This document shows, piece after piece, positions 30,761-54,393 of a stretch of 64,000 bases of DNA. A program made the position numbers and the translations under genes. Origin of the DNA: Yinghuangia seranimata (GTDB lineage: Bacteria; Actinomycetota; Actinomycetes; Streptomycetales; Streptomycetaceae); NCBI RefSeq assembly GCF_029953285.1, contig NZ_JASAOI010000019.1, forward strand, positions 186,001-250,000, given 5' to 3'. The first letter of the stretch is position 1. Every line of letters begins with the position of its first letter. Below the pieces are notes generated by a model. The model made no database searches, was not told where the DNA came from, and saw nothing but the letters and a program-made list of their open reading frames with translations.

Positions 30761-30789
30761 GGTTCGCCCCCTGGTCGCCGAGTGGGTCA

Positions 30790-33939: not shown

Positions 33940-33949
33940 CGGCGTTTTG

Positions 33950-35245: not shown

Positions 35246-35278
35246 TTGACAGCCCCCGACGGCGCCCGCACGATACAT
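35246..35278 (+). promoter_or_regulatory. Possible promoter of the lipid-synthase operon
   Basis: A perfect TTGACA lies at 35246-35251, followed by an A/T-containing GATACAT at 35272-35278. The spacing (20 or more bases) is longer than ideal, so only the -35 box is convincing. It lies ~150 bases downstream of the operator dyads, as expected for an activator acting from upstream. Confidence 0.35.
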
Positions 35279-35477: not shown

Positions 35478-38400
35478 ATGGCCTCGCAGACCGTCCGCCG
35501 CGACCCGCCCGCCGTCCGCCCCCTGCCCCGCGACCTCGTGCTCGCGGTCGGTCCGTTCGAGGAGCCGAACGCTCCGCTCGCCGTCGCCGCCCACCGCGCC
35601 GGCGCGCTCGGGGTCGTGGACCTGGGCCGCGACCGGGCGGCCGCGCTGGCCGCCCTCGCGGAGGTCGCGCGCCGCCCGGACCGGTCGTTCGGCGTGCGCG
35701 TGCCGGCCGGCTGCCCGATGAGCGCCGGCGACCTCCCGGACTCCGCCGACATCGTGGTACTGGCCGCCGGATCGCCCTGGCGGATCGACGAAGTCCCGGC
35801 GGGAAGACGCGTGTTGGTCGAGGTGACCACACCCGCCGAGGCGCACGCGGCACAGGCGGACGGGGCACACGGGCTGATCGCCGTCGGCCACGAGTCGGGC
35901 GGCCGGGTCGGCGACCTGACCACGTTCGTCCTGCTCCAACACCTGCTCGCGGACCAGGGACTGCGGCTGCCGGTCTGGGCGAAGGGCGGCATCGGCCCGC
36001 ACACCGCCGCGGCCGCCGTGGCGGGCGGCGCGGCCGGGGTCGTCCTCGACACCCAGCTCGCGCTCCTCGCGGAGTCCGCACCATGCCTGCCGGACCCGGT
36101 GGCCGCGGCACTGCGGTCGATGGACGGCGGGGAGACCGCCGTCCTGGAGGGACACCGGGTGTACTCCCGGCCGGATCTGCCGCTTCGTCGGCTTGCGGAC
36201 GAGGCGGCGGCGTTCGGCGGCGTCGGATCGGCGTTCGGGGCGCGCGGCCTCGACCGGCAGTTGCTCCCCGTGGGACAGGACGGAGCGCTGGCCCGACGTT
36301 TCGCCGAGCGGTACGGCACGACCGGACGGACCGTGCGGGCCGTCCGGTCGGCCGTCACCGACGCACTGGTCGCCGCTGTGGCGGCCACCCCGCTGGCGCC
36401 CCGGGCGGACGGCGAACTGCCGGTCGTGCAGGGCCCGATGACCCGGGTCAGCGACCGTGCGGCGTTCGCCGACGAGGTGTCCGCAGCGGGCGGGCTGCCG
36501 TTCCTGGCGCTCGCGCTGATGGACGGCGCCGCGACCCGGGCGCTCCTCGAGGAGACCGCGGCCCGGCTCGCGGGCCGGCGCTGGGGCGTGGGGCTGCTCG
36601 GCTTCGCGCCGCCCGAACTGCGCGACGAACAGCTGGCCGCGGTCGCCGCGGTGCGCCCGCCGTACGCGCTGATCGCGGGCGGACGCCCGGACCAGGCCGC
36701 GCCGTTGGAGGCCGCCGGGACCCGCACCTACCTGCACGTGCCGTCGCCAGGGCTGCTGGAGCAGTTCCTGCGCGCCGGCGCGCGGCGCTTCGTCTTCGAG
36801 GGCCTGGAGTGCGGAGGGCACGTGGGCCCGCGTGCGAGCTTCCCGCTCTGGGAGGCGCAGCTGGACCTGCTGGCCGCCCACGCCCGGCGGCACGGCGGCG
36901 CCGACCTGGACGTGCTGTTCGCGGGCGGCGTGCACGACGCCCGGTCCGCCGCGATGGTCGCCGCGGCCGCCGCGCCGCTGGCCGAACTCGGTGCGCGGGT
37001 AGGCGTGTTGATGGGCACCGCGTACCTGTTCACCGACGAGGCGGTGGCCGCGAGCGCCATCCTCCCCGGCTTCCAGCGCACCGCGCTGGCCTGTACGTCC
37101 ACCGAACTGCTGCAGACCGCCCCGGGACACGCGACGCGCTGCGCGGGGACGCCGTTCGTGGCGGCCTTCGCCGAGGCCCGCGCCGGCCTGGAGGCGCAGG
37201 GGGTGCCGGCCCGCGAGATGTGGGCGCACCTGGAGGAACTCAACCTGGGGCGGCTGCGGATCGCCAGCAAGGGCGTGGTGCGCGACGGCGCCGAGCTGCG
37301 GTCCGTCGACGAACCGGACCAGCTGCGCGAGGGCATGTTCATGCTCGGCCAGGTCGCCGCCCTGCACGACGCCCCGACCACGGTCGCCGCGCTGCACGCG
37401 GACGTGACCGAGGGCGCCACCGCGTTCCTCGCCGCGCGCGCCGCCGAACTCGGGCTCACCGAAGCCGAGTCGGCGACCGTCGCGGAACCGGTCGACGTCG
37501 CGATCGTCGGCATGGCCTGCGTGCTGCCGGGCGCCGCCGACCTGGACGCGTTCTGGCGGAACGTGCTGACCGGCGTCGACGCGGTGACCGAGGTGCCGCG
37601 CGAACGCTGGGACCACGACACCTACTTCGACCCGGCGGCCACCCGCGACCCGAACGGCAAGACACCGTCCAAGTGGGGCGGCTTCGTGCCGCCGATCCCG
37701 TTCGACGCACCCGCGTTCGGGATCCCGCCCGCGTCGCTCGCCTCCATCGAGCCCGCGCAGCTGCTCGCGCTGCACGTCGCCGCGCGCGCCCTGGACGACG
37801 CCGGCTACGGGAGCGGCCGGGAGTTCGACCGCGCGCGCACGTCGGTCATCTTCGGCGCGGAGGCGGGCACCGACCTCGCCGGCGCGTACGGCTTCCGGTC
37901 GCTGTACCCCGCCTACTTCGGGGCGCTGCCCGCCGAGCTGGACGCGCGGCTGCCCAAGCCGACCGAGGACTCCTTCCCCGGCGTCCTCGCGAACGTGATC
38001 GCCGGCCGCATCGCCAACCGGCTCGACCTCGGCGGCGTCAACTACACGGTGGACGCGGCGTGCGCGGCCTCGCTCGCCGCGCTCGACCTGGCCTGCAAGG
38101 AGCTCGTGCAGGGCGGCAGCGACGTCGTGCTGTGCGGCGGTGTGGACACCCACAACGGCGTCAACGACTACCTGATGTTCTCGTCGGTGCACGCGCTTTC
38201 GCCGTCCGGGCGGTGCGCGACCTTCGACTCCGCCGCCGACGGCATCGCGCTCGGCGAGGGCGCCGCGTGCCTGGTGCTCAAGCGGCTCACGGACGCCGAG
38301 CGCGACGGCGACCGGGTCTACGCCGTGGTCAAAGCGGTCGGCGGCTCCAGCGACGGCCGGTCGCTCGGGCTGACCGCGCCGCGCCCCGAGGGGCAGCGGC

Positions 38401-41400
38401 GCGCGCTGGAGCGGGCGTACGCGCGGGCCGGCGTGTCCCCGGCCGAGATCGGCCTCGTCGAGGCGCACGGCACCGGCACGGTCGTCGGCGACCGCGCCGA
38501 ACTGGAGACGCTGACCGAGGTGTTCACCGCGCACGGCGCCGCGCCGGGCGGGTGCGCGCTCGGCTCGGTGAAGTCGCAGATCGGGCACACCAAGTGCGCC
38601 GCGGGCCTGGCCGGGCTGATCAAGGCGACGCTGGCGCTGCACCACGGCGTGCGCCCGCCCACGCTGCACGTGCGCGAGCCCAACGCGGGCTGGGACCCGG
38701 AGCGCAGCCCGTTCTTCTTCGACGGGCAGGCCCGCCCGTGGGCCGAGCACGACCCGGCCCGGCGCCGCGCCGGGGTGAGCGCGTTCGGGTTCGGCGGCAC
38801 GAACTTCCACGCCGTGCTCGCCGGCCACACGCCCGGCGAACACGAGTGCCGCACCGACGTGTTCGGCAGCGCGGCGCTCACCGCGTGGCCGGTCGAGCTG
38901 TTCTGCTTCGCCGGGGCCACGCACGCCGACGCGGTCGCCGCCGTCGACCGGCTCGCCGCGCTGCTGGACGACGGCACGCCGCGCACGCTGCGCGGGCTTG
39001 CGGCCCTCGCCGCCGACGAGGCCTCCGCCGCGACGGCGGCCGGGGCGCCCGTGCAGGTCGCCCTGGTCGCCGCCGACCCCGACGACCTGCGGGTCAAGCT
39101 GGCCAGGGCCCGGGACGGCGCCGACGACCCGGCCGGCGAGGTGTTCCTGCGCCGGGCCGGCCACGAGCCGGGCACGGTCGCGTTCCTCTACCCGGGGCAG
39201 GGCAGCCAGCGGCCCGGCATGCTCGCCGACGTGTTCGTCGCGTTCCCCGGGCTGCGCGACGTGTTCGGCCAGGCGCCGCCCGGCTGCGTCGACGCGATGT
39301 TCCCGCCCGCGGCGTTCACCGCCGAGGCCCGGGAGGCCGCGCACCGGCGCATCACCGACACCCGCACCGCGCAGCCCGCGCTCGGCGTCGCCGAGGTGGC
39401 GCTCACGCGCCTGCTGGACCGGCTCGGTGTCCGCCCCGATCTGGCCGCCGGGCACAGTTACGGCGAGCTCGCGGCGCTGTGGGCCGCCGGCGCCTACGAC
39501 AGCGCGGACCTGCTGCGGCTCAGCGCCGCCCGTGCCGAGGCCATCCTCGGCGCGGCGGGCGACGACCCCGGCGCGATGGCCGCGGTGGCCGCGCCGCTGG
39601 AGCGGATCGCGCCGGTGCTGTCGCTGCTGAACCTCAACCAGAACCTGGCGCACGGCGTCACAGGGCAGCAGGTGGGCGTCGTCCCGGCGAACCTCAACAC
39701 GCCGACCCAGACCGTGGTCTCGGGTCCGACGGCCGCGATGGAGGCGGCCGTCGAGGCCCTGGAGGCCGAAGGGCTGCAGGTCAGGCGGCTGCCGGTGGCG
39801 TGCGCCTTCCACAGCCCGGTCGTCGCGGCCGCGTCGGTGCGGCTGGCGAACGTGCTGGCCGACATCCCGGTGGCGGCACCGCGGTTCCCGGTCTGGTCGA
39901 ACGGCGCGGCGGCCACCTATCCCGCCGACCCCGACGGCGTGCGCCGGCTGCTCGCCCGCCAGGTCGCCGAACCGGTGCGGTTCGTCGAGCAGATCGAGGC
40001 GATGTACGCCGCCGGGGCGCGTACGTTCGTCGAGGTCGGCCCGGGGCGCGCCCTGACCGGCATGGTCAGGGCGATCCTCGGGGACCGCCCCCACACCGCC
40101 GTCGCGTGCGACGTGCCCGGCGAGCCCGGGCTGCGTCGGCTCCTCGCGGCGCTGGCCGAACTCGCCGTGTGCGGGCTGCCGGTCGCGGTGCGGGAGCTCA
40201 CCCGGGGCCGTGCGCGAGACGCCGACACGCGCCCGGCCCCGCTCCCGGCGTGGCAGGTGGACGGCCACCTGGTGCGCACCGCCGACGGCGCCCCCGTCGC
40301 GGGCGGGCTGCGGCCCGCGGAGCCGGTCCGGCCCCAGGCGGTCCTGCCGGCCGCCGGGGCCGCGACCGGGGTGAACGGGTCGCCGACCGGTCTCGCGGCG
40401 GCCGAGGATCCGCGGCAGCGGGCCGTCCTGGAGTACCTGGCGGCGGCACGCGAGTCGGTGGCGGCGCAGCGGGACGTGCTGCTCGGATTCCTGGGCGCGA
40501 GCCCGCAGCCGTGGACGCCCGCGGCGCCGACGGGTGCTGCTCTTGCCCAGCCGGTGGCGGGTCCTGTGGCGGCGACGCCGGTGCCCTCGTCCGTACCGAC
40601 ACCTGCGCCTGCGCCCGCGCCTGTCGCGGTGCTGGACACGGCACGGGCGCTGGACGCCGTGCTGGAGGTCATCGGCGCGCGGACCGGCTATCCGCGCGAC
40701 ATGCTCGACACGGGCCTGGACCTGGAGGCCGACCTGTCGGTCGACTCCATCAAGCGCACCGAGATCATCGGCGAACTCGCCGTCCGCCTCGACATGCTCG
40801 ACGAAGCCCTGGTCGAACGCCTCGCCCGCGTGAAGACCATCACGGCGATCGTGGAGGGACTCGTCGAGCACGCAGCGTCGCGTCCCGGCGCCGACGCGGG
40901 AGGCCAGGCTCCCGCGCCGGCCGTCCAGCCCGCCGCCGCGCTGCTGGACGCCGGTCGCGCCCTCGACACCGTGCTCGAGGTCATCAGCGCCCGCACCGGC
41001 TACCCCCGGGAGATGCTCGACACCGGCCTGGACCTGGAGGCCGACCTGTCGGTCGACTCCATCAAACGCACCGAGATCATCGGCGAACTCGCCGTCCGCC
41101 TCGACATGCTCGACGAAGCCCTCGTCGAACGCCTCGCGCAGGTGAAGACGATCGACGCGATCGTCGACGGGCTGCTGGCACACGCGGGCGCGGCGCAGGG
41201 CGCGCCGGAGCCGGCCGCGGCGGTCGCCTCCGCGGCGGCGCCGTTCGGCGGAGCTCCGGTGCGGTCCGGTGCCGACGCCGAAGCCGCCGACATCGGCCGC
41301 CCCGTGCGGCACACCGTCGACCTGGTCGAGTTCCCGGCGGCCGCACCCGATCCGACGGACGCCGAACGCGCCGTCGGGGGCCGCTCGGTGGTCCTGGTCG

Positions 41401-42818
41401 CGGACGCGCACGGCATCGCCCTCGCGCTGGCCGAGCTGCTGGAGCGGTTCGGCGCGAGCGTGCGCATCGTCGAACCGGGGCAGCCCCTGCCCGGGCCCGA
41501 CGTGGACGCGGTCGTCCACCTCGGCGCCCTGCGTCCCGACGAGGTGCCGGTCATCCTGGACGACTTCACGCTGCTGCGGGACGCGCTCGAAGCCGGTGTC
41601 GGCCACCTGCTGACGGCCACCGGCAACGGCGGCGCGTTCGGCCGCGACACCGACCACGTTGAGCGGCGCGCCACCGACCGCTCCCCCGGCATCGGGCTGC
41701 CCGGCTTCGCCAGGACCGCCGCGCACGAGTACCCGGACACGGTCGTCCGCGTCGTCGACGTCGACCCGAAGGACGAACCCGCGGCCATCGCCACGCGGTT
41801 GCTGGCACTGCTCGGCGCGGGCCCGGACCCGCATGCGCCCGTCGCGGTCGGGCTCGGCGCGGGCGTGCACCGCACGCTGGTCGTCAACGAACGGCCGCTC
41901 GCCCCTGGTTCCGGCGGGTCCGCGGCCGTGCTGGGGCCGGACTCGGTGGTGCTGCTGACCGGCGGGGCACGCGGCATCACCGCGCGCGTCGCGGTGGGCC
42001 TGGCCAGGGCGTACGGCTGCCACATCGAACTGATCGGGCGCACCGCCGACACCGGCCCGGAAAGCCCCGCCACAGCGCACGCCGCCGACCGGGCCGCGGT
42101 GCGGGCCGCGCTCGTCGCGGGCGGGCTGCGGGCGCCGGCCGAGGTCGAGGCCGAGGCGTCGCGGCTGCTGGCCGCCCGCGAGGTGCGGGCGACCGTGGCG
42201 GCCTTGGCCGGACCCGCCGCGTCTGTGCGGGTGCACGCCGCGGACGTGCGCGATCCCGCGTCCGTGGGTGCCGTCGTCGCCGACGTGTACGCCCGGCACG
42301 GCCGGCTCGACGCGATCGTGCACGGCGCGGGCGTCCTCGACGACCGGCTGCTGAAGGACAAGACCGAGGAGGCCTTCGCCCGCGTCTTCACCACCAAGGT
42401 GGTCGGCGCACGGGCTCTCGCCGACGCGGTGCGCGCCCGGCCCGTCGCCGAACGGCCCCGGTTCCTGGCGCTGTTCGGCAGTGTCGCGGGTGTCTTCGGC
42501 AACCGCGGGCAGGCCGACTACGCCGCCGCCAACGACGCCCTGGACACCCTCGCGTACGCCTGGGGGCCGGCCGCCAACGGCGACGCGGTCGCCGACCGCG
42601 TCGTGTCGTTCGACTGGGGTCCGTGGGCGGCCGCCGGCGGCGGCATGGTCACGGCCGAACTCGAACGGCACTACCGGCGGCTCGGCATGCCGCTCATCGA
42701 CCCCGACGCCGGCGTCGACGCGCTGCTCGCCGAACTCGACGCCCCGGACGGGCCCGCGCAGGTCGTGTACCTGTGCCCGCCGCGCACCGCCCAGGAGCCG
42801 ACGGAGGAGGCCCGATGA
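35478..42818 (+). CDS. PUFA-synthase-like megasynthase: NMO-NMO-KS-AT-ACP-ACP-KR
   Basis: This 2446-residue multidomain lipid synthase starts at ATG 35478 (GGGAAGGAG upstream). Residues ~10-290 and ~310-640 are two nitronate-monooxygenase/PfaD-type TIM barrels; the second keeps the family histidine (EGLECGGHVG), the first has GGRVG instead. PfaD acts as the enoyl reductase of PUFA synthases. KS: Cys862, His997, His1037. AT: Ser1327 in GHSYGE. Two ACPs carry pantetheine serines Ser1757 and Ser1861 in LSVDSIKRTE, the PUFA-synthase hallmark. KR: TGGARGI near 2160, Ser2335 and Tyr2348. The order resembles PfaA with PfaD fused in front. It should elongate and reduce malonyl units together with the next gene, whose ATG overlaps its stop (ATGA). 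Confidence 0.9.
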   Translation: MASQTVRRDPPAVRPLPRDLVLAVGPFEEPNAPLAVAAHRAGALGVVDLGRDRAAALAALAEVARRPDRSFGVRVPAGCPMSAGDLPDSADIVVLAAGSPWRIDEVPAGRRVLVEVTTPAEAHAAQADGAHGLIAVGHESGGRVGDLTTFVLLQHLLADQGLRLPVWAKGGIGPHTAAAAVAGGAAGVVLDTQLALLAESAPCLPDPVAAALRSMDGGETAVLEGHRVYSRPDLPLRRLADEAAAFGGVGSAFGARGLDRQLLPVGQDGALARRFAERYGTTGRTVRAVRSAVTDALVAAVAATPLAPRADGELPVVQGPMTRVSDRAAFADEVSAAGGLPFLALALMDGAATRALLEETAARLAGRRWGVGLLGFAPPELRDEQLAAVAAVRPPYALIAGGRPDQAAPLEAAGTRTYLHVPSPGLLEQFLRAGARRFVFEGLECGGHVGPRASFPLWEAQLDLLAAHARRHGGADLDVLFAGGVHDARSAAMVAAAAAPLAELGARVGVLMGTAYLFTDEAVAASAILPGFQRTALACTSTELLQTAPGHATRCAGTPFVAAFAEARAGLEAQGVPAREMWAHLEELNLGRLRIASKGVVRDGAELRSVDEPDQLREGMFMLGQVAALHDAPTTVAALHADVTEGATAFLAARAAELGLTEAESATVAEPVDVAIVGMACVLPGAADLDAFWRNVLTGVDAVTEVPRERWDHDTYFDPAATRDPNGKTPSKWGGFVPPIPFDAPAFGIPPASLASIEPAQLLALHVAARALDDAGYGSGREFDRARTSVIFGAEAGTDLAGAYGFRSLYPAYFGALPAELDARLPKPTEDSFPGVLANVIAGRIANRLDLGGVNYTVDAACAASLAALDLACKELVQGGSDVVLCGGVDTHNGVNDYLMFSSVHALSPSGRCATFDSAADGIALGEGAACLVLKRLTDAERDGDRVYAVVKAVGGSSDGRSLGLTAPRPEGQRRALERAYARAGVSPAEIGLVEAHGTGTVVGDRAELETLTEVFTAHGAAPGGCALGSVKSQIGHTKCAAGLAGLIKATLALHHGVRPPTLHVREPNAGWDPERSPFFFDGQARPWAEHDPARRRAGVSAFGFGGTNFHAVLAGHTPGEHECRTDVFGSAALTAWPVELFCFAGATHADAVAAVDRLAALLDDGTPRTLRGLAALAADEASAATAAGAPVQVALVAADPDDLRVKLARARDGADDPAGEVFLRRAGHEPGTVAFLYPGQGSQRPGMLADVFVAFPGLRDVFGQAPPGCVDAMFPPAAFTAEAREAAHRRITDTRTAQPALGVAEVALTRLLDRLGVRPDLAAGHSYGELAALWAAGAYDSADLLRLSAARAEAILGAAGDDPGAMAAVAAPLERIAPVLSLLNLNQNLAHGVTGQQVGVVPANLNTPTQTVVSGPTAAMEAAVEALEAEGLQVRRLPVACAFHSPVVAAASVRLANVLADIPVAAPRFPVWSNGAAATYPADPDGVRRLLARQVAEPVRFVEQIEAMYAAGARTFVEVGPGRALTGMVRAILGDRPHTAVACDVPGEPGLRRLLAALAELAVCGLPVAVRELTRGRARDADTRPAPLPAWQVDGHLVRTADGAPVAGGLRPAEPVRPQAVLPAAGAATGVNGSPTGLAAAEDPRQRAVLEYLAAARESVAAQRDVLLGFLGASPQPWTPAAPTGAALAQPVAGPVAATPVPSSVPTPAPAPAPVAVLDTARALDAVLEVIGARTGYPRDMLDTGLDLEADLSVDSIKRTEIIGELAVRLDMLDEALVERLARVKTITAIVEGLVEHAASRPGADAGGQAPAPAVQPAAALLDAGRALDTVLEVISARTGYPREMLDTGLDLEADLSVDSIKRTEIIGELAVRLDMLDEALVERLAQVKTIDAIVDGLLAHAGAAQGAPEPAAAVASAAAPFGGAPVRSGADAEAADIGRPVRHTVDLVEFPAAAPDPTDAERAVGGRSVVLVADAHGIALALAELLERFGASVRIVEPGQPLPGPDVDAVVHLGALRPDEVPVILDDFTLLRDALEAGVGHLLTATGNGGAFGRDTDHVERRATDRSPGIGLPGFARTAAHEYPDTVVRVVDVDPKDEPAAIATRLLALLGAGPDPHAPVAVGLGAGVHRTLVVNERPLAPGSGGSAAVLGPDSVVLLTGGARGITARVAVGLARAYGCHIELIGRTADTGPESPATAHAADRAAVRAALVAGGLRAPAEVEAEASRLLAAREVRATVAALAGPAASVRVHAADVRDPASVGAVVADVYARHGRLDAIVHGAGVLDDRLLKDKTEEAFARVFTTKVVGARALADAVRARPVAERPRFLALFGSVAGVFGNRGQADYAAANDALDTLAYAWGPAANGDAVADRVVSFDWGPWAAAGGGMVTAELERHYRRLGMPLIDPDAGVDALLAELDAPDGPAQVVYLCPPRTAQEPTEEAR
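40701..41149 (+). repeat. Nearly identical tandem ACP segments
   Basis: Bases 40701-40837 and 41013-41149 (offset 312, 104 codons) differ at about six positions, including at silent sites. They encode the pantetheine-attachment region of the two ACPs. Identity at wobble positions implies recent duplication or gene conversion. Confidence 0.8.
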
Positions 42819-45800
42819 CCGGACGCGACCCCGGGCCCCGGCCCACCGACGCGGCGATCGTCGGCATCGGCGCGGTGTTCCCGTCCGCGCCGGACGGCCC
42901 CGCGTTCTGGACGAACATCGAGAAGGGCGTGGACGCGATCACCGACGTCCCGCCGCACCGCTGGGACCCGGACGTGTACTTCGCGCCCGACGCCGCCACC
43001 GGGCCGGTCCGCGCCGACCGGTTCTACTGCCGGCGCGGCGGATTCGTCGACGAGTACGCGACGTTCGACCCGACCCGCTTCGGGATCATGCCGGCCGCCG
43101 TCGACGGCGCCGAACCCGACCAGCTGCTCGCGCTGCGCACCACCGCCGAGGCGATCGCCGACGCGGGCGGCGAGGACCGGCTCCCCGACCGGTCGCGCAT
43201 GGGCGTGGTGTTCGGCCGCGGCGGCTACATGGGCGTCGCGACCGCGCGGCTCGACCAGCGGGTCCGCACCGCGCACCAACTGGTCTCCGTGCTGCGGCAG
43301 ATCGCCCCCGAGTTCGACGAGGGCCGGCTGACCGCGATCCGCGACGCGTTCCAGGCCGCGCTGGGACCGGAGCGCCCCGACGCGTCCATCGGCCTGGTGC
43401 CGAGTTTCACCGCGTCGCGGATCGCCAACCGGCTCGACCTGGGCGGGCCCGCGTACACCGTGGACGCGGCGTGCGCGACCGGGCTGCTGGCGATCGACCA
43501 CGCGGTGGCGGAGCTGGCTTCGGGGCGCTGCGACGCGGTCATCGCGGGCTCCGTGCACCACTGCCACATCGCCACGCTGTGGAGCGTCTTCACCCAACTG
43601 CGGGCGCTGAGCCCGGCGATGCGGATCCGCCCCTTCGACCGGGCCGCCGACGGGACGCTGATCTCGGAGGGCACGGGGGCGGTCGTCCTCAAACGGCTCG
43701 CCGACGCGCAGCGGGACGGCGACCGGGTGTACGCCGTGGTGCGCGGGGTCGGCGTGTCCAGCGACGGCCGCGCGGCCAGCCTGATGAGCCCCCTCGCCGA
43801 CGGCCAGATCCGCGCCCTCGACCGCGCGTGGCAGGCCGCCGGCCTGGACCCGCAGGCCTCGGACGCACTGGGCCTGCTGGAGGCCCACGGCACCGGCACC
43901 CCGGTCGGCGACGCGGTCGAACTCGACACCCTCGCAAGGTTCTTCGGCCACCGCGCCGAGCCGGACACGGTCATCGGCTCGGTCAAGTCGATGATCGGCC
44001 ACACGATGCAGGCCAGCGGCATGGCCGGCCTGCTGAAGGCCGTCTACGCCGTCCACCACGCCGCCCTCCCCCCGACGCTGCACGTCGAGGACCCGCACGA
44101 GGCCCTGTCCCGCACCCGCATGAGGCTCCTCTCGGAATCCGAACCCTGGCCCACCACTCCGGGCACGGTCCGCCGCGCCGGAGTGAACGCCTTCGGCTTC
44201 GGCGGGGTGAACACCCACGTGATCGTGGAGGAACCCCCGACGGGACGTGCGGAGGCCCTACCGGTCCCGGCACCGGGAACGCGGATGCCCGACGAGCGGG
44301 CCCAGACGACGGATGGGCATGCGGTGGCGTCGAAGCCCGACGCGATCAGCACCGCAACCGCGCCGCCCGCCGAAGGCGTGGCGAGGGCGGCCCACGAGGG
44401 TGCAGGCGAACTCCCACCGGGCACTCTGAGCGCCCGCCCCCGCACCCTGCACGCCACGACTGCGGCCGACGCGCGCATGGCCACACAGGCGCACTCGGGC
44501 ACCACCGCACGGCCCGACGAAAGCGTGGCAGACCAAGCCGACGCAGACAGGCGCACGACCGCGTCGGGGACTGACCACGTCGCGTCGGAGACGACGACCG
44601 CTGCCACCGCGCCGGCCGCCGAAGGCGTGGCGAGGGCGGCCCACGAGGGTGCAGGCGAAGTCCCGGCCCCCGGGGGCGCGCAGGGCACCGCAAGCGTCGG
44701 CCCCGACAGTCTGCATGCCACGACTGCGACCAACGCGCACGCGGCCACGCAGGCGCACTCTGCCTCAACCACACCGCCCGTCAACGGCGCGGCGCAGCCC
44801 GCGGGGCGCATCAGCGCGGCCGCAGCGTCGGGTGCGAGTGCGAACGGCATCGCGCAGGTCGCGGGCTTTGTCGGAGGCATCGGGGCGGGCGGGGCTTCGC
44901 GGGAGGGGCGTTCGGCTGCCACGGCGCGGGTTCTGGATTCGCGGGTTCTGGTGCTCTCGGCCGGGAGCGTCGCGGAGTTGGCGACCTTGTTGGCCAAGGG
45001 GGTCACGTCGTCCGCGAGCGACGGGCCGTGCCGGCTTGCCGTTGTCGATCCCAATCCTCGTCGGCTCGAGCTTGCGGGCCGGGTGGTTGCGCGCGGGGAA
45101 CCCTGGCGTGGGCGTAGCGACATCTGGTTCACGCCTCGGCCGTTGCTCGGGGCGCATGCGCGGCAGCCGGGGAAGGTGGCGTTCCTGTTTCCCGGGTTGG
45201 AGCCCGAGACGCAGCCGCCCCTCGACGATGTCGCGGACGCGTTCGCGTTGCCGCGGCTCGTCGCCAACGACGCCGGCGAGATCGTGGGGCGGGCGCTCGA
45301 CGCGCTCGGGAGCGGGCGGTTGCTCGCGGCGGCGCTCGGCGGGCTCGGGGTCCGTCCCGACGTCGTCGCCGGGCACAGTCTCGGTGAGTGGACGGCCATG
45401 GTCGTCGCCGGGATGTACCCGACCAGTGCCGTGGACGTGTTCCTCGACTCGCTGCGGCCCGGGTCGCTCGCCGTGCCGGATCTCGTCTATGCCGCCGTCG
45501 CGTGCGGTGCCGAGCGTGCCGCGGCCGCGTGTGCGGTCGTCGGCGGGGTGGTGGTATCGCACGAGAACTGCCCGCACCAGTGCGTGGTGTGCGGTCCCGC
45601 CGACGCGGTGCGTCGGGTGTTGGAACGGCTGCGCACGGACGGCGTCCTCGGTCAGGAGCTGCCGTTCCGGTCGGGGTTCCACACGCCGATGTGGGAGCCG
45701 TACCTGGACCAGGTGCGCGGCGCGTTCGCGCGGCTGCCGTTGCGCGACGCGCGGGTCCCGGTCTGGTCGGCGACCAGCGTCGCGCCGTATCCGCGGCGGT

Positions 45801-48001
45801 CGGACGAGGTGCGCGACCTGACGATCCGGCACCTGTTGGAGCCGGTCCGCTTCGGCGCCCTCGTCGAGCGCCTGCACGGGTCGGGGGTGCGGGCGTTCGT
45901 CCAGGTCGGCGCCGGCAGCCTCGGCGGGTTCGTCGACGACACGCTGCGCGGCGCGGAGGCGTTGACGGTGGCCGCGCACAGTGCCCGGCATCCGGGGCTC
46001 GCCGGGTTGGTGCGGGTGCGGGCCGCGTTGTGGGCCGAGGGCCTGGTGACCGGGCCCGGCGCGGAGCCGCGGGAGAGCGCCGCGCCACGCTCGGCGGCCG
46101 CCGCCTCACCGGGCGGCCCGTCGGCGCGCCGTACCGGGCCCCCCGTACGCCTCGACCTCGGTTCCCCCATCGTGCGCCTGGATCCGGACCGGCTGCCCGC
46201 CCCGCCGCCGCGCGCGGTCGCCGCGCCGCCGCTGAACGGGCATCAGGCCGGGAACCCGGTGCTCACCGCGTTCGCCGCGATCCTGAACGAGGCGGGCGAC
46301 GCCGCGACCCGGACGATGGAGGCCTGGCAGCGGCACGGGCCCGCCGCCCCGGAGTCCGCCGCCCCGGCCGTCGAGGCCCGGCCCGTCGAGCCCGAACGGC
46401 TGTCCCAGCGCCGTGAGTTCTCGCTGCGCAACCTGCCGTACGTCGCCGACCACTGCATCTACGAGCAGCACGACCAGTGGGCGGACGACTCGGACCGCTT
46501 CCCGGTCGTCCCCATGACGACGCTGCTCGACCTGACGGGCGAGGCGGCGCGGGCGCTGGTGCCCGGCACGATCGTCGCGGGCTACGACGAGGTCCGCGCG
46601 CTGCGCTGGCTGCCGGTCGCGCCGCCGACGGACGCCGAGGTGACCGCGACGCGCCTGGACGCCGTGCGCGTGCGGGTCGAGATCGCCGGGTTCACCTCGA
46701 CCGTGGTGCGCCTGGCGCAGGCCCCCGAGGCGCCGCCGGAGCCGGACCGTACGCCGCTCGTCAACGAGGGCCCGGCCCCCGTGCGCGCCGCGGCGCTGTA
46801 CGCGGACCGGTGGATGTTCCACGGCCCGGGGTTCGCCGGCATCGACGAGGTGACCGCGGTCGCCGACGACGGGATCCGCGGGGTGCTGCGCACGCTGCCC
46901 GCGCCCGGCGCGCTGCTCGACGCCGCCGGCCAGTTGTTCGGGCACTGGATGCAGCTGCGGCTGCCGACCGACCGGCTCGTGTTCCCGGTCTCCGTCGACC
47001 AGGTGCGGTTGTACGGGCCGCCGCCGCGCACCGGCGACCGGCTGCTGGCCACCGCGCGCATCCTGCACACCACCGCGACGACGGTGCGCGGCGACGTCGA
47101 GCTGTGCGACGCCCGCGACGGCCTGGTCCGGGCCCGGCTGCTGGGCTGGACGTACCGCCGGTTCGCCGCCGACGAGCGGGTGTGGCCGATGAAGTTCACG
47201 CCGCACACCACCGGGGTCGGGGAGCCGCAGGCGGAGGGCTGGTGCCTGGTGCGCACCCGCTGGCCGGACGCCGCGTCGCAGGAGCTGGTCATGCGCCGCT
47301 ACCTCGGGGCGCGGGAGCGCGCCGAGTTCGCGACCCGTCCGCCGCGGTCGCGTTCCGGCTGGCTGCTCGGCCGGATCGCCGTCAAGGACGCCGTGCGCCG
47401 CTACCTGTGGTCGCGCGGCGAGGGACCCATCTATCCGGCCGAAGTCCAGGTGTCCAACGACGAGTTCGGCCGCCCGGAGATCGAGCACGTGGTGCCGGGC
47501 GACGAGTTTCCGCGCGGCCGCCCGCGGCTGCACGTCTCGCTCGCGCACAAGCACCGGCTGGCCGTCGCGATCGCGGACCGGGTCCCCGTCGGCATCGACA
47601 TCGAGTCGTTGGACGAACGGTCCGACGCGTTCGAGCGGGTCGCGCTCGCCCCGGCCGAGCGCGACCTGCTCGACCGGCTCTCCGACGGCGACCCGGACCG
47701 GCGCCGCGAATGGCTGGTGCGGTTCTGGTGCGCCAAGGAGGCCGCGGGCAAGGCGGACGGCATCGGCCTCGCCGGGCGGCCGACCGACCGGCGGGTCGTC
47801 TCCGCCGCCGAGGACCTGCTGACCGTCGCCGGCCCGGGTCGCGCCGCGGCCCGCCCGCACCAGGCACCCGCCCCACCGGTACGCGCGGTTCGCACCCGCG
47901 TCGTGGCGGACGTGGCCGAGCGCTACGTCGTCGCGTGGACCGTCCCACCGTCCGGAGACGGCTCTCACCCTGTCCCCCCTCGTCCCGTGGAGTCATCGTG
48001 A
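42815..48001 (+). CDS. Second lipid megasynthase: KS-AT-DH-PPTase
   Basis: This 1728-residue synthase has a KS with Cys220 (DAACATG), His358 (EAHGTGTP) and His396 (IGHTMQ). An Ala/Thr-rich linker of ~220 residues follows (~490-700), then an AT with Ser855 in AGHSLGEW. A double-hotdog dehydratase covers ~1190-1470; its first histidine is in VADHCIYEQ and the aspartate in LLDAAGQLFGHW. A C-terminal phosphopantetheinyl transferase shows GIDIE at 1593-1597 and WCAKEAAGK from 1638. The fused PPTase probably activates the ACPs of the cluster. Resemblance is to PfaC/PfaB-like and HglE-type secondary lipid synthases. Its start overlaps the previous stop and its stop overlaps the ACP start (GTGA). Confidence 0.88.
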   Translation: MTGRDPGPRPTDAAIVGIGAVFPSAPDGPAFWTNIEKGVDAITDVPPHRWDPDVYFAPDAATGPVRADRFYCRRGGFVDEYATFDPTRFGIMPAAVDGAEPDQLLALRTTAEAIADAGGEDRLPDRSRMGVVFGRGGYMGVATARLDQRVRTAHQLVSVLRQIAPEFDEGRLTAIRDAFQAALGPERPDASIGLVPSFTASRIANRLDLGGPAYTVDAACATGLLAIDHAVAELASGRCDAVIAGSVHHCHIATLWSVFTQLRALSPAMRIRPFDRAADGTLISEGTGAVVLKRLADAQRDGDRVYAVVRGVGVSSDGRAASLMSPLADGQIRALDRAWQAAGLDPQASDALGLLEAHGTGTPVGDAVELDTLARFFGHRAEPDTVIGSVKSMIGHTMQASGMAGLLKAVYAVHHAALPPTLHVEDPHEALSRTRMRLLSESEPWPTTPGTVRRAGVNAFGFGGVNTHVIVEEPPTGRAEALPVPAPGTRMPDERAQTTDGHAVASKPDAISTATAPPAEGVARAAHEGAGELPPGTLSARPRTLHATTAADARMATQAHSGTTARPDESVADQADADRRTTASGTDHVASETTTAATAPAAEGVARAAHEGAGEVPAPGGAQGTASVGPDSLHATTATNAHAATQAHSASTTPPVNGAAQPAGRISAAAASGASANGIAQVAGFVGGIGAGGASREGRSAATARVLDSRVLVLSAGSVAELATLLAKGVTSSASDGPCRLAVVDPNPRRLELAGRVVARGEPWRGRSDIWFTPRPLLGAHARQPGKVAFLFPGLEPETQPPLDDVADAFALPRLVANDAGEIVGRALDALGSGRLLAAALGGLGVRPDVVAGHSLGEWTAMVVAGMYPTSAVDVFLDSLRPGSLAVPDLVYAAVACGAERAAAACAVVGGVVVSHENCPHQCVVCGPADAVRRVLERLRTDGVLGQELPFRSGFHTPMWEPYLDQVRGAFARLPLRDARVPVWSATSVAPYPRRSDEVRDLTIRHLLEPVRFGALVERLHGSGVRAFVQVGAGSLGGFVDDTLRGAEALTVAAHSARHPGLAGLVRVRAALWAEGLVTGPGAEPRESAAPRSAAAASPGGPSARRTGPPVRLDLGSPIVRLDPDRLPAPPPRAVAAPPLNGHQAGNPVLTAFAAILNEAGDAATRTMEAWQRHGPAAPESAAPAVEARPVEPERLSQRREFSLRNLPYVADHCIYEQHDQWADDSDRFPVVPMTTLLDLTGEAARALVPGTIVAGYDEVRALRWLPVAPPTDAEVTATRLDAVRVRVEIAGFTSTVVRLAQAPEAPPEPDRTPLVNEGPAPVRAAALYADRWMFHGPGFAGIDEVTAVADDGIRGVLRTLPAPGALLDAAGQLFGHWMQLRLPTDRLVFPVSVDQVRLYGPPPRTGDRLLATARILHTTATTVRGDVELCDARDGLVRARLLGWTYRRFAADERVWPMKFTPHTTGVGEPQAEGWCLVRTRWPDAASQELVMRRYLGARERAEFATRPPRSRSGWLLGRIAVKDAVRRYLWSRGEGPIYPAEVQVSNDEFGRPEIEHVVPGDEFPRGRPRLHVSLAHKHRLAVAIADRVPVGIDIESLDERSDAFERVALAPAERDLLDRLSDGDPDRRREWLVRFWCAKEAAGKADGIGLAGRPTDRRVVSAAEDLLTVAGPGRAAARPHQAPAPPVRAVRTRVVADVAERYVVAWTVPPSGDGSHPVPPRPVESS
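44357..44659 (+). repeat. Direct repeat in the linker of the second synthase
   Basis: Bases 44357-44410 and 44606-44659 match at 53 of 54 positions with an offset of 249 bases (83 codons). The repeated peptide includes EGVARAAHEGAGE. The following residues (LHATT, ATQAHS) also recur at the same offset, so a whole ~83-residue unit was duplicated. Confidence 0.8.
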
Positions 48002-48348
48002 CCGCCGAAACCACCACCGTGCCCTTCACGCCCGTGCAACCGCGCCACGTCGCGGTGTCCGCCGACGCGATCCTCGCCGAGCTGGTCGCCATGCTGGTCG
48101 AGGTCGTGGGCGAGGAGCTGCTGATCGCCACGACGGTCGACCGGGACAGCTCGTTCAACGCCGACCTGGCCATCGAGAGCATCGAGTTCGTGGCGCTCGC
48201 CGAGAAGCTGGAGAACCGCTACGGCTCGCGCGTGGACTTCATGGCGTTCCTCGCCGAGCTGGAGATGGACGAGATCCTGGAGATGACCGTCGGGACGCTC
48301 GTCGACTACATCGCCGCCCAGCTGGGCGGCGCCGGCGGGGAGGGCTGA
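47998..48348 (+). CDS. Discrete acyl carrier protein
   Basis: This 116-residue ACP has its phosphopantetheine serine at Ser61 in DLAIESIEFVALAEKLE. The ~25-residue N-terminal extension is unstructured. The sequence is more like free ACPs of secondary metabolism than the LSVDSIKR ACPs of the first synthase, so it may load a starter, accept a product or work with the hydrolase. The GTG start overlaps the stop of the second synthase (GTGA). The hydrolase gene starts 5 bases after its stop. Confidence 0.9.
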   Translation: MTAETTTVPFTPVQPRHVAVSADAILAELVAMLVEVVGEELLIATTVDRDSSFNADLAIESIEFVALAEKLENRYGSRVDFMAFLAELEMDEILEMTVGTLVDYIAAQLGGAGGEG

Positions 48349-48352
48349 GCCC

Positions 48353-49324
48353 ATGGCGGAGGTCCAGGCGAACGGGCTGCGGTTCCACGTCCAGCACCTG
48401 CGCGGCGGGCGCGCCACCACCGACCGGCCGACGGTCGTGCTGCTGCACGGCCTGGTGCTCGACAACCTGTCCAGCCTCTACTACACGCTCGCGCCGCCGA
48501 TCGCGCGCGCCGGGTTCGACGTGCTGATGTACGACCAGCGCGGGCACGGCCTGTCCGACCGCACGCCGACCGGGTACGACGTGGACACGGCCGTCGACGA
48601 CCTGACCGCGGTGCTCAAGGCGTGCGGCGTCACCAGCCCGGTGCACCTGCTGGGCAACAGCTACGGCGGGCTGACCGCGCTGCACACCGCCTACCTGCAC
48701 CCCGAGCTGGTGGCGAGCCTGATCCTCGTCGAGGGCCAGTGCCTCGACCCCGAGCACAGCGGGGCCGCGCCCGGCGCGGGCGGGTACGCGGGCGGCTGGG
48801 TCGAGGACATCTCCAACACCCTCAACCTCATCGCCATCGGCCTGGAGTGCAACCCGCTCGGCACCGACCTGGTCTCGCGCACCGCGCGCAAGGCCGCGCG
48901 CATGCGGGCGACGGCGGACGCGCTGCTGAACCGGACCACCCTCATCGAGGACGTCACCACCGTGCGGCTGCTCACCTCGGAGCAACTGGCCGCCGTGCCG
49001 TGCCCCGTGCTGGCACTGTTCGGGGCCGGGTCCAACCTGGTCGACTCCGGGCCGCTGCTCGCCGAGCACCTGCCCGACTGCACCGTCGAGGTGTTCCCCG
49101 ACGCCGCGCACGCGCTGCTGCGGGACGCGCCCGAGCGGCTGTTGGCCTCGGTGCTGACGTGGCTCGACACCCGCTCCCCCGCCTCCACCGCGTTCACCCG
49201 GCGCGGCACGGACTACGCGGCCCGCAGCTCCGGCTACGAGGCCGGGGCGGCCGGGCACGACGCGAGCATCGCGGCGTTCGACGAGGCCGACGACGCGGAC
49301 GCGGTCGACGAGGGCGCCGCATGA
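48353..49324 (+). CDS. Alpha/beta hydrolase, probable product-release or editing esterase
   Basis: This 323-residue hydrolase has an oxyanion-hole strand VVLLHGLVLD, MYDQRGHGLSDRT after strand 4, and the nucleophile Ser103 in LLGNSYGGLTAL. The late acid/base pair is probably the aspartate in LFGAGSNLVDSG and the histidine in FPDAAHALLRDAPERLL. The last ~50 residues are polar and Asp/Ala-rich. Between an ACP and a glycosyltransferase, it may release the acyl chain from the synthase or trim the product. Its stop overlaps the glycosyltransferase start (ATGA). Confidence 0.88.
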   Translation: MAEVQANGLRFHVQHLRGGRATTDRPTVVLLHGLVLDNLSSLYYTLAPPIARAGFDVLMYDQRGHGLSDRTPTGYDVDTAVDDLTAVLKACGVTSPVHLLGNSYGGLTALHTAYLHPELVASLILVEGQCLDPEHSGAAPGAGGYAGGWVEDISNTLNLIAIGLECNPLGTDLVSRTARKAARMRATADALLNRTTLIEDVTTVRLLTSEQLAAVPCPVLALFGAGSNLVDSGPLLAEHLPDCTVEVFPDAAHALLRDAPERLLASVLTWLDTRSPASTAFTRRGTDYAARSSGYEAGAAGHDASIAAFDEADDADAVDEGAA

Positions 49325-50496
49325 AGTGCCTGTTCGTCGTGCCGCCGTTCGCGGGGCACGTCAATCCGACCGTCGCGGTCGCGGCCGAACTCGCCGCGCG
49401 CGGCCACACCGTGGCGTGGTGCGGGCCGCCGGAGGTCCGCGAGCTGCTGCCGCCCGACGCCGAACTGCACGCGTGCGCGACCACGCCCGACGGCGGATTC
49501 GGCGCCCTGCACGCCCGTTGGCGGAACCTGCGCGGCGTGCAGGCGCTCAGGTTCCTCGTCGAGGACGTACTGGTGCCGTTGGCCGCGACCATGCGGCCCG
49601 GGGTCGACGCGGCCCTGGCGGCGGCCCGGCCCGACGTGGTGGTCGCCGACCAACAGGCCTTCGCCGGCGCGCTGGGCGCGACCCTCGCGGGGCTGCCGTG
49701 GGCGACGTCGGCGACCACGTCCGCCGAGTTCACCCGGCCGTTCGAGGGCTTCCCGAAAGTGCACCAGTGGGTGCGGGACCGGGTCCGGGCGCTCGGGGTG
49801 GAGGCGGGGCTCGGGGCGGGCTGGGACCCGCGGTTCTCGCCGCACCTCGTGCTGATCTTCTCCACGCCGGAACTGGCCGGCGGCGCCGACGAGGCGCCGC
49901 CGCACCACCGTTACGTGGGGCCGGCGTTCGGCGCGCGGCCCGCTCCTGTCGACTTCCCCTGGGAGCGGCTCGCCGCCGACCGACGCCGCGTCCTGGTCTC
50001 CCTGGGGACGCTGAACCGGGAGGCCGGGACGCGGTTCTATCCAGCGGTCGCCGAGGCCACGCGGGCGCTGGCCGACCGGGTGCAGGTCGTCATGGCGGTG
50101 CCGGACACGTTGCTGTCCGACGTGCCGGGCGGGTGCGAGCACGTGATCACCCGCGAGTTCGTCCCGCAGCTCGACCTCCTGCCGCACCTGGACGCGGTCG
50201 TCACACACGGGGGCCACAACACGGTCTGCGAGGCCCTGGCGTTCGGCCTGCCGCTGGTCGTCGCCCCGATCCGCGACGACCAGCCGCTCGTGGCCCAACA
50301 GGTGGTGGCCGCGGGCGCGGGCGTACGGGTCAGGTTCGGCCGGGCGCACGTCCCGGAGATCCGCCAGGCGATCACGGACGTCCTGGAACGCCCCGAGTTC
50401 CGCGAGGGCGCCCGACGCGTCCGCGACTCCTTCGCCGCGGCCGGCGGAGCCTCGTCGGCGGCGGACGCCCTGGAGCACCTGGCGGCGACCCCATGA
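49321..50496 (+). CDS. MGT-type (GT1) glycosyltransferase
   Basis: This 391-residue GT-B glycosyltransferase is of the macrolide/UGT type. The N-terminal acceptor domain starts CLFVVPPFAGHVNPTVAVA, which includes the catalytic His of the GHVNP motif. The C-terminal domain has the nucleotide-sugar signature VTHGGHNTVCEALAFGLP near residue 295-312 and IRDDQPLVAQQV after it. It should attach one sugar to a hydroxyl of a hydrophobic acceptor. Being translated from an ATGA overlap inside the operon, its likely acceptor is the lipid made by the synthases. No sugar-biosynthesis genes are nearby, so it probably uses a common UDP-sugar. Confidence 0.9.
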   Translation: MKCLFVVPPFAGHVNPTVAVAAELAARGHTVAWCGPPEVRELLPPDAELHACATTPDGGFGALHARWRNLRGVQALRFLVEDVLVPLAATMRPGVDAALAAARPDVVVADQQAFAGALGATLAGLPWATSATTSAEFTRPFEGFPKVHQWVRDRVRALGVEAGLGAGWDPRFSPHLVLIFSTPELAGGADEAPPHHRYVGPAFGARPAPVDFPWERLAADRRRVLVSLGTLNREAGTRFYPAVAEATRALADRVQVVMAVPDTLLSDVPGGCEHVITREFVPQLDLLPHLDAVVTHGGHNTVCEALAFGLPLVVAPIRDDQPLVAQQVVAAGAGVRVRFGRAHVPEIRQAITDVLERPEFREGARRVRDSFAAAGGASSAADALEHLAATP

Positions 50497-50542
50497 CCGC
50501 CGCAACCCCCGCCCCATTCCTGCTCATTGGACGGGAGCCAGC

Positions 50543-53337: not shown

Positions 53338-54393
53338 GTGTCACTCATGGAGCAACGCGACGCGGCGCCCGTACTGCGCGTGGTGCCGTACTCGTTCGCG
53401 CAGGCGTACGGCTATGCGCCCGCCGGTGTGTGGAGGGCGCCCTACGCGTTCCGCCTCGCCGGGATCCCGGGGCGGAGCGGCATCGTCACGGCGGCGGGCT
53501 GGCAGGTCGTCACGGCGGCCGCGCCGCGCGCCGACGGGATGCTGCGGGTCGGGTCGCTGAACCGGCCGGGGGACGCCGTCGAGGTGCCGGTCGGGCGGCC
53601 GGGGAACGTCCCGGCCTGGGCCGAGCCGATCGCCGCCGTCGCGCACGCGCTCGGCCGTACGGCGGGCCCGGGCGCGGGACTCGACCTGCTGCTGCACGCG
53701 GACCTGCCGGAGGCCGCGGGGCTCGCGCCGTCCGTGCCGATGGCGTGCGCGGCGGCGCTCGCCTGGACCACGTTCCACGGCCCGGAGGTGCCGACCGCCG
53801 CGCTCGACGCCCTGCTGCGCAACGTCGTGCCGCCGCCCGGCGACACGGCCGACGCGGACGCGCTGCGCACGGCGTCGCTGTACGGCGGCGAGGAGCGCGC
53901 GCTGATCATGGGCCCGTCCGGACCAACCGGCGAACTCCCGTTCGAGCTGGCCGCCGAGGGGCTCCGCCTCATGCTGGTCATCCCACGCGATCGCGGCACC
54001 ACGCACACGCCGATGGCCTCGGTCGTCGAGTCGCTGCGCGGCGCACGCGACGAGGCGGAGCGGGCGCAGCGCATGGAGATGTTCCTCCGCGAACGCGAAC
54101 TCCCCCGCGCGCTCAGCCTGCTGACCGCCTCGCAGCTGTCCCGCGTGCCGGGGTACGGCACGGGCTGGGCCGAGGCGGACACCACCGTCGACGCCGCCAA
54201 ACGCGGCGGCGCCCTCGGCGCCCGCCTGGCCGGCGGCACGACGGGCTCGGCGGTCGTCGCGTTCGTACCGGGCCCGCTGCTGGCCGAGGTCAGGTCGAAC
54301 GTCGTCGCGGCGTTCCGCCAACGCGGCCGGCTCACCCCGAGGTTCCTGACCGGCACCGGCGGCGCAGCGGCAGGGCCGGCCGAGGAAGACTGA
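53338..54393 (+). CDS. GHMP-kinase/galactokinase-like protein, possibly degenerate
   Basis: The GTG at 53338 follows AGAGAGGA and gives 351 residues. The sequence is laid out like a GHMP kinase. A glycine-rich stretch, LPEAAGLAPSVPMACAAAL, stands where galactokinases have PxGxGLSSSAA, and a C-terminal ARLAGGTTGSAVVAFVP corresponds to the GGxGG motif. The serine-rich phosphate loop is reduced (APSVP) and the N-terminal GRVNLIGEH motif is absent (IPGRSGIV). It may be a sugar-binding protein rather than an active kinase. As the last gene of the cluster it could supply or sense the sugar used by the glycosyltransferase. The assignment is moderate. Confidence 0.6.
   Translation: MSLMEQRDAAPVLRVVPYSFAQAYGYAPAGVWRAPYAFRLAGIPGRSGIVTAAGWQVVTAAAPRADGMLRVGSLNRPGDAVEVPVGRPGNVPAWAEPIAAVAHALGRTAGPGAGLDLLLHADLPEAAGLAPSVPMACAAALAWTTFHGPEVPTAALDALLRNVVPPPGDTADADALRTASLYGGEERALIMGPSGPTGELPFELAAEGLRLMLVIPRDRGTTHTPMASVVESLRGARDEAERAQRMEMFLRERELPRALSLLTASQLSRVPGYGTGWAEADTTVDAAKRGGALGARLAGGTTGSAVVAFVPGPLLAEVRSNVVAAFRQRGRLTPRFLTGTGGAAAGPAEED

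Follow-up and report, generated by a model that had tools for sequence, protein, structure and literature searches.

Secondary lipid synthases fall into several described types. For Type P (Ars) synthases the product has been verified: they make the C22-C26 chains found in phenolic lipids (PMC4824345; PMC3098273). In Azotobacter vinelandii the ars operon is switched on by the LysR regulator ArpR (PMC4824345). According to the survey by Shulse & Allen (2011; PMC3098273), Type M synthases occur in S. avermitilis, Frankia, Actinosynnema mirum and Renibacterium, have no known product and are reported in association with a PPTase; the S. coelicolor cluster is filed there as Type L, with a separate pfaD and a fused pfaBC carrying two dehydratase (DH) domains. 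Actinomycetes also make fattiviracins and cycloviracins, which are glucosylated macrodilactones with long trihydroxy-acyl chains, cycloviracin being O-methylated on glucose (PMC4365757). Streptomyces microflavus No. 2445 produces fattiviracin and Kibdelosporangium albatum ATCC 55061 cycloviracin.

The window analysed here is a stretch of 64,000 nucleotides from the soil actinomycete Yinghuangia seranimata (contig NZ_JASAOI010000019.1, positions 186,001 to 250,000). Seven genes with the same direction occupy its positions 35478-54393, and their domains were matched with Pfam and NCBIfam:

35478..42818, + strand: synthase 1 (ArsA-like), ER1-ER2-KS-AT-ACP-ACP-KR, 2446 aa
42815..48001, + strand: synthase 2, KS-AT-PKS-type DH-Sfp-type PPTase, 1728 aa, C-terminal half ArsD-like
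47998..48348, + strand: free acyl carrier protein (ACP), PF00550, 116 aa
48353..49324, + strand: alpha/beta hydrolase, PF00561, nucleophile motif GNSYGG
49321..50496, + strand: GT1 glycosyltransferase (GT) of the YjiC/OleD/EryCIII kind, PF06722 and PF00201, 391 aa
50543..53029, + strand: methyltransferase (MT) with TM helix, CPWC...CRDC zinc ribbon and class I SAM-MTase domain PF13489
53347..54393, + strand: galactokinase-fold protein, upstream start TTG 53026 possible

These borders and domains agree with the seven-gene operon proposed in an initial annotation of the locus. Synthase 1 starts with ATG, preceded by the ribosome-binding site GGAAGGAG. Neighbouring genes overlap by four bases between the two synthases (ATGA), between synthase 2 and the free ACP (GTGA) and between the hydrolase and the GT (ATGA), and the GT reading frame 49321-50496 is backed by homologues. 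A start at TTG 53026 would give the galactokinase-like gene a TTGA overlap as well, but homologues favour a start at 53338 or 53347. Such overlaps were said to be present at most junctions, which is generous for three, perhaps four, of six. The phosphopantetheine serine of the free ACP lies within DLAIESIEF, and the hydrolase is a candidate for releasing the chain or transferring it as an acyl group. The catalytic residues of the KS, AT, ACP and DH domains are intact and are invariant or nearly so among 67-70 relatives; the genes therefore look functional and under selection rather than placed together by chance.

The conservation of the cassette was assessed in 66 named loci having enough flanking DNA. 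The ACP was present in 65 of these, the hydrolase in 64, the GT in 63 and the MT in 48, and synthase 1 through GT was fully colinear in 56. The first six genes keep their order amid unrelated surroundings in several actinomycete orders and in Myxococcota, so the synthases, ACP, hydrolase and GT are co-conserved across phyla; the cassette was found in many Streptomyces, in myxobacteria and also in an acidobacterium. The same cassette genes recurred in 22-25 of 25 family or phylum neighbourhoods with differing flanks, and two giant linear plasmids carry exactly the six genes, set among IS elements. A 15 kb version lies at 19977-34951 of the Streptomyces sp. NBC_01243 plasmid. The synthase family was detected in 51 of 200 sampled Streptomycetaceae genomes, or roughly one in four. 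The tailoring genes are a constant part of homologous clusters, and their absence from such clusters, which the initial annotation had named as a refutation, was not observed. Co-occurrence of all seven genes had been suggested as a check; the first six do recur across actinomycetes, whereas the galactokinase-like gene is nearly limited to one clade. The recurring six-gene order, GT included, gives good support to a glycosylated secondary lipid.

The GT is a two-domain GT-B protein with an HGGxN..E donor motif, and its PDB relatives YjiC, OleD and CalG match over the whole length. GT1 enzymes glycosylate non-lipid acceptors too, a counterpoint to the glycolipid reading. The MT consists of a TM helix, an orphan alpha/beta domain, a TM segment, the zinc ribbon and the PF13489 domain, with a low-complexity insert at about residues 54-250. 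Its fold neighbours include, as weak matches, the zinc-ribbon sugar methyltransferases MtmC, KijD1 and TcaB9; fold and profile searches found no relative of the long N-terminal domain. Because of this orphan domain, and because 18 of the 66 loci lack the MT, have it out of reach or carry a replacement, methylation of the lipid itself is the weakest step of the pathway considered below.

The flanks of the operon contain the following genes and candidate control elements:

33950..34837, - strand: LysR-type regulator, divergent from the operon, PF00126 and PF03466
35077..35092, no strand: palindrome CATACGC-TG-GCGTATG, candidate operator, conserved with Yinghuangia soli in the intergenic alignment
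35117..35128, no strand: palindrome AGAACGTGTTCT, candidate operator, conserved with Y. soli in the intergenic alignment
35246..35251, + strand: TTGACA, candidate -35 element of the operon promoter, in a conserved block of the intergenic alignment
55718..56605, - strand: second LysR-type regulator of the first one's family, PF00126/PF03466; Embleya clusters also have a LysR gene here
56726..58093, - strand: secreted propeller-like protein with putative Ig domains, PF05345, recurs in subtype-1 clusters
58583..60232, + strand: secreted phosphoesterase with PKD/putative Ig domains, PF04185, recurs in subtype-1 clusters
60443..61756, + strand: MFS transporter, candidate exporter, PF07690, recurs in subtype-1 clusters

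Subtype-1 clusters have a LysR gene at one border or both. The LysR border genes, the phosphoesterase, the propeller-like protein and the MFS transporter had been omitted from the initial annotation; all are conserved in the window's clade. Exporters are of the MFS type in this clade and of the ABC_membrane/ABC_tran type in Actinosynnema, and Pseudonocardiales clusters carry lipid-type tailoring with a WS/DGAT acyltransferase. Other neighbours were rejected as members. The acyl-CoA dehydrogenase, TetR and VWA genes (29618-33856) are shared with Y. soli only and not with Embleya or Streptomyces, and the YcnI/DUF1775 gene (54922-55707) adjoins the cluster in none of the other genomes compared. 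Equating the propeller-like protein with the Streptomyces gene behind GHMP was an artefact of shared Ig domains; that Streptomyces gene is the phosphoesterase.

We favour, with fair though not high confidence, the view that the cluster is a glycolipid pathway whose core is an iterative fatty acid synthase of the Ars type, and we infer its chain type, tailoring order, sugar, methylation site and export as follows. The PPTase domain of synthase 2 would activate the ACPs. Both synthases would then jointly and iteratively add malonyl units, with condensation by KS/AT, reduction by KR and dehydration by DH; the FabK-like ER2 would saturate the chain, ER1 being probably a structural partner. The product would be a long chain (about C20 or more), largely saturated, in which hydroxyls may remain where dehydration is skipped. 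It could leave the synthase via the free ACP, the alpha/beta hydrolase or both, and the GT1 enzyme would transfer the hexose of a UDP-sugar onto a hydroxyl. As there are no sugar-making genes in the cluster, the sugar donor is likely to come from primary metabolism. The membrane-bound MT may methylate the glycolipid at the membrane, and in the window's clade the two LysR regulators would round off the unit together with an exporter, which is of the MFS type here and of the ABC type in other clades.

A possible, though rather unlikely, product is a polyhydroxylated or polyene polyketide glycoside, secreted as a secondary metabolite rather than retained as a membrane lipid. In that case DH and ER steps would be skipped in a programmed manner, the hydrolase would release, cyclize or dimerize the chain, the GT and MT would decorate it and MFS or ABC proteins would export it. 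The relatives of the GT among macrolide and polyketide GTs, the exporter genes of several clades and the carriage of the cassette on plasmids, as for antibiotic clusters, are consistent with such a product, for which the actinomycete fattiviracins and cycloviracins offer a chemical precedent (PMC4365757). The initial annotation had proposed a glycosylated, perhaps methylated, membrane lipid; the co-conserved glycosyl and methyl tailoring beside a type I iterative synthase supports the decoration, but sequence cannot separate a membrane lipid from this secreted glycoside.

A specific assignment of the cassette to the fattiviracin/cycloviracin/macroviracin macrodiolides appears distinctly unlikely. 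Their structure class is what the enzyme set could make: the synthase would leave set hydroxyls, GT1 would glucosylate them, the hydrolase would close the dimeric macrolactone and the MT would O-methylate the sugar. The link is, however, one of chemical logic alone, and the open literature yielded no gene cluster for these compounds. Were it true, related compounds would be expected from the myxobacterial branch, which has tandem hydrolases.

The initial annotation had described the synthases as PUFA-type, and a pathway in which they give a polyunsaturated, EPA-like fatty acid that is later glycosylated was considered. TIGR02813 (PfaA) is indeed the top NCBIfam match for synthase 1, and its ACP motifs (residues 1756 and 1860) fit LxxDSIKR. 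The score of 975.6 bits nevertheless fell below the curated cut-off of 1010.1. The window's synthase 1 has two ACPs, and 57 of 67 relatives have a single one. No Pfam match to a FabA-type dehydratase/isomerase was obtained in either synthase, and the sole DH across both is PKS-type, with His and Asp kept. In 69 of 70 rows the second KS retains its Cys; the exception is an Ars outgroup protein that has no KS. This KS is therefore no Pfa-type chain-length factor. The N-terminal pair of synthase 1, previously labelled NMO-NMO, does comprise two domains, better named FabK-like enoyl reductases (GGR in place of GGH in ER1, GGH in ER2). Sequence does not reveal how far the chain is reduced; if DH/ER steps are skipped, a polyhydroxy chain or a polyene could result. 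Synthase 1 is colinear with a Beijerinckia ArsA-like protein (44% identity in ER-ER, 46% in KS-AT, 36% in KR), and synthase 2 matches the ArsD-like protein in DH (30%) and PPTase (31%). In plasmid records, Ars-type clusters of Methylosinus and Beijerinckia were the closest KS-AT relatives outside the own family at this length. By these comparisons the Ars phenolic-lipid synthase is the nearest relative belonging to a type whose product is verified, and a polyunsaturated product is very improbable. With a single PKS-type DH and no FabA-type domain, the chain should be long and mostly saturated, and it may bear hydroxyl groups.

The GHMP-kinase-like gene of the initial annotation is degenerate. 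An AlphaFold model of its product (mean pLDDT 77.6) matches galactokinases (6tep, E 2.5e-21; profile match 2e-28). Throughout the family, GEHTDY (sugar-binding), the GLSSSA loop, the catalytic Asp and GGGxGG are all changed or lost: GRVNLIGEHTDY is substituted and its loop deleted, GLSSSA has become GLAPSV or GLATAE, the Asp of the GGLDQ segment is substituted and about 100 central residues are gone. Its motifs thus mark it as a galactokinase fold with lost catalytic motifs; this loss and its clade limit mean that it is no evidence for sugar activation. Despite the fold, activity as a sugar or lipid kinase that supplies the GT's donor is extremely improbable, given these changes and its absence from most clusters that retain the GT.

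In the open literature, names such as hglE-KS, PUFA synthase and PfaD and those of the fattiviracin type led to no product for the cluster, in line with the earlier statement that none was described. The pathway appears to be among the commoner unread lipid pathways in heavily studied bacteria, and at six genes and 15-17 kb the cassette would be easy to clone and test.

Among known systems, pfaABCDE/TIGR02813 shares the KS-MAT-ACP-KR core and an FMN enoyl reductase, but the cluster is without a FabA-like DH2/isomerase and a CLF, its ER is fused and duplicated and its ACP is mostly single. The heterocyst-glycolipid (hgl, Type F) system also glycosylates the long hydroxylated chain made by a secondary lipid synthase; set beside the cluster by description, it differs in gene order and domain split. 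The S. coelicolor cluster, named in the initial annotation as of similar type, has an unlike layout according to the published description of Type L. Actinosynnema pretiosum carries the cluster and a second Actinosynnema genome the synthase; this overlap with the Type M taxa named by Shulse & Allen suggests that the synthase family is probably their Type M. The ars operon of A. vinelandii (ArsA/ArsD) and Beijerinckia indica plasmid pBIND02 shares the ER-ER-KS-AT-ACP-KR fusion and a DH-PPTase partner protein, matched by the C-terminal half of synthase 2 (30-31%). The A. vinelandii operon has a LysR activator, and LysR genes stand at the borders here. The window's cluster differs in that its synthase 2 has an intact KS-AT ahead of DH-PPTase; three relatives (L065, L066, L193) have a synthase 2 without KS. 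The ars operon also carries type III PKS genes for the phenolic head; none was found in the window's operon, which has the ACP, hydrolase, GT and MT instead, as do its relatives. Evolution thus seems to use the fused ER-ER Ars-type synthase as a general engine for long chains, joined to one or another head-group module, a type III PKS or a glycosyltransferase.

Gene calling and domain searches in the window, part of a 9.8 Mb actinomycete genome, resolved a cluster of seven co-directional genes. These methods, together with reading of the gene junctions, bore out the gene and domain list of the initial annotation:

35478-42818, synthase 1: two NMO-fold enoyl reductases (ER1 and ER2), KS, AT, two ACPs, KR
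42815-48001, synthase 2: KS, AT, DH, PPTase
47998-48348, free ACP
48353-49324, alpha/beta hydrolase
49321-50496, GT1 glycosyltransferase
50543-53029, membrane/zinc-ribbon methyltransferase
ending at 54393, galactokinase-like gene, with alternative choices of start codon

Synthase 1 and synthase 2 overlap in ATGA, synthase 2 and the free ACP in GTGA, and the hydrolase and glycosyltransferase in ATGA. At two further junctions the genes are spaced 4 and 46 bases apart, while that between the methyltransferase and the galactokinase-like gene varies with the start codon chosen. Among named genomes, Yinghuangia soli comes closest, with mostly 68-90% identity over the cluster domains, which makes the host a Yinghuangia-like member of the Streptomycetaceae.

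Among genomes of the host's family, 51 of 200 carried a member of this synthase family, against 10 of 397 in a phylum-wide sample. In 25 neighbourhoods drawn from these two samples, the genes from synthase 1 to the glycosyltransferase were kept together in 22 to 25 cases, with variable flanks. A separate scan of named genomes yielded 80 loci (L-numbers below), and gene content was counted in the 66 whose sequence runs on for 5.5 kb or more past the DH domain. In these counts, which are biased towards relatives of the query, the ACP was found in 65 loci, the hydrolase in 64, the glycosyltransferase in 63, the methyltransferase in 48 (its long N-terminal domain in 30) and the galactokinase-like gene in 23; the order from synthase 1 to the glycosyltransferase was fully colinear in 56. 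The arrangement is thus more than chance. Actinobacterial loci cover Streptomyces, Embleya, Kitasatospora, Catenulispora, Actinomadura, Actinosynnema, Amycolatopsis and Pseudonocardiales MAGs; elsewhere, loci occur in Myxococcota MAGs and Sulfidibacter. Two Streptomyces giant linear plasmids (NBC_01243, L127; NBC_00984, L128) carry a cassette of exactly six genes, from synthase 1 to the methyltransferase. The nearby IS3/IS6-type transposases, and ACP and hydrolase protein accessions identical between the two plasmids, suggest recent mobility of this cassette.

Active sites were surveyed in 67 synthase-1 and 70 synthase-2 rows. The KS Cys-His-His of both synthases, AT GHS, ACP DSIKR, DH His and Asp, and PPTase GIDxE and KEA were invariant or nearly so. 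ER2 retained GGH in 67/67 rows. ER1 had GGR in 57/67, a conserved substitution of the FabK histidine, which suggests that ER1 is a structural or regulatory partner. We conclude that the cluster is real, conserved and, to judge from its sequence, apparently functional. The DH is PKS-like, and domain searches found no FabA-type domain in either synthase, leaving the cis-isomerising step of PUFA synthesis without a visible enzyme.

The glycosyltransferase resembles YjiC/OleD among its structural relatives and has Asp-Gln at the end of its donor loop (RDDQP). In characterized GT1 enzymes this ending usually accompanies UDP-hexose. No deoxysugar genes were found near the glycosyltransferase gene. 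The methyltransferase has a TM helix at its N-terminus, then an orphan alpha/beta domain and a TM segment, and finally a CPWC/CRDC zinc ribbon ahead of a class I methyltransferase domain. Its fold neighbours include the zinc-ribbon sugar methyltransferases MtmC, KijD1 and TcaB9, a weak hint that it may act on a sugar. After the TM helix comes a long insert of low complexity, rich in Ala, Gly, Thr and Ser (residues about 54-250; 50702-51292), which Y. soli and other homologues lack.

The kinase label on the seventh gene did not hold. The structure model of its product retains the galactokinase fold, but the sugar-binding motif, phosphate loop and catalytic Asp are lost, as are about 100 residues from the middle of the protein. 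A pseudokinase is its most likely identity. Yeast Gal3 is also a profile match, and by analogy one might guess at a sensor or scaffold.

In the synthase-1 tree, the window, Y. soli and Embleya fall inside one clade (22 rows, SH-aLRT 99), which contains all tree rows having the galactokinase-like gene; its sole row without the gene, L143, stops at a contig edge. Outside the clade, a 30% identical copy occurs only at two loci of a distant family (L065, L066). Clade members have a long methyltransferase (~620 aa) and a LysR gene bordering one or both sides, and often add an MFS pump and two secreted proteins, a phosphoesterase and a propeller-like one. At 56726-60232 a propeller-like protein and a PF04185 phosphoesterase, both secreted, are encoded on opposite strands and share a C-terminal putative Ig repeat; the pair recurs near clusters of this clade. 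In a second large Streptomyces clade the methyltransferase is short (~370 aa), the galactokinase-like gene is absent and the DH is only ~38% identical. The long methyltransferase is also found in Myxococcota (L161-L163, L177, L188), often with a tandem hydrolase pair, so this form is probably ancestral or was moved between phyla. Tandem hydrolase genes lie behind the ACP in L161-L163, L177, L185, L188 and L189 (Myxococcota and related MAGs); actinomycetes have one.

The methyltransferase next to the glycosyltransferase is replaced by an ABC exporter in some actinobacterial branches (L155, L159, L208), and by WS/DGAT acyltransferase and PMT-like glycosyltransferase genes in L145, L146 and L148; L153 has the latter genes together with the methyltransferase. 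In these last four loci, all from Pseudonocardiales, the acyltransferase and PMT-like genes suggest an acylated, further glycosylated variant. In S. griseocarneus, noursei, olivoreticuli and klenkii (L164, L166, L169, L178), a conserved four-gene block stands in for the methyltransferase; its products include a papain-like (C70/C39) peptidase-like protein and two proteins of ~493-565 aa that matched nothing in Pfam. Synthase 2 lacks its KS in L065, L066 and L193, and the second KS is therefore dispensable for the system.

Elsewhere in the window, a Family 2 encapsulin shell protein (12530-13945, + strand; PF19307 SrpI-like, 470 bits) has an N-terminal cyclic-nucleotide-binding domain. Antisense to it lies a full-length match (12565-13074, - strand; 163 bits) to RF02735 (Sernc350), which Rfam describes as an antisense sRNA family from Saccharopolyspora; the match may only mirror coding-strand conservation of the encapsulin gene.

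The sequence shows the parts, their order, the intact active sites and the co-conservation, and the glycosylated-lipid reading of the initial annotation is likely. The synthases would build a long, mostly saturated, possibly hydroxylated chain, to be hexosylated, methylated at the membrane and exported. The open-access literature yielded no compound linked to the cluster; subscription journals lay outside the search, so a published product is possible. The actinomycete fattiviracins and cycloviracins (PMC4365757) fit the enzyme set, purely as a matter of chemical logic. Shulse and Allen distinguished 20 secondary lipid synthase types, assigning S. coelicolor to Type L and placing S. avermitilis, Frankia, A. 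mirum and Renibacterium in Type M; neither type had a known product (PMC3098273). Because the cluster occurs in A. pretiosum and the synthase in an 8.2 Mb Actinosynnema genome, Type M is its likely home.

The PUFA label did not hold, given the PKS-like DH and the lack of a FabA-type domain; the nearest system compared was Type P (Ars), the source of the C22-C26 chain in Azotobacter phenolic lipids (PMC3098273; PMC4824345). Identity to Beijerinckia indica Ars was 44% for ER-ER, 46% for KS-AT, 36% for KR, 30% for DH and 31% for PPTase. The arsABCD operon is activated by the LysR protein ArpR (PMC4824345). LysR genes flank the window's cluster too, a likeness of regulator family. Within the 640 bases that separate LysR from synthase 1 lie two palindromes (35077-35092 and 35117-35128), both conserved in Y. 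soli. In Beijerinckia and Methylosinus, type III PKS-like genes (KAS III C-terminal domain) sit between two Ars-type proteins, whereas the window's cluster has the ACP, hydrolase, glycosyltransferase and methyltransferase in their place.
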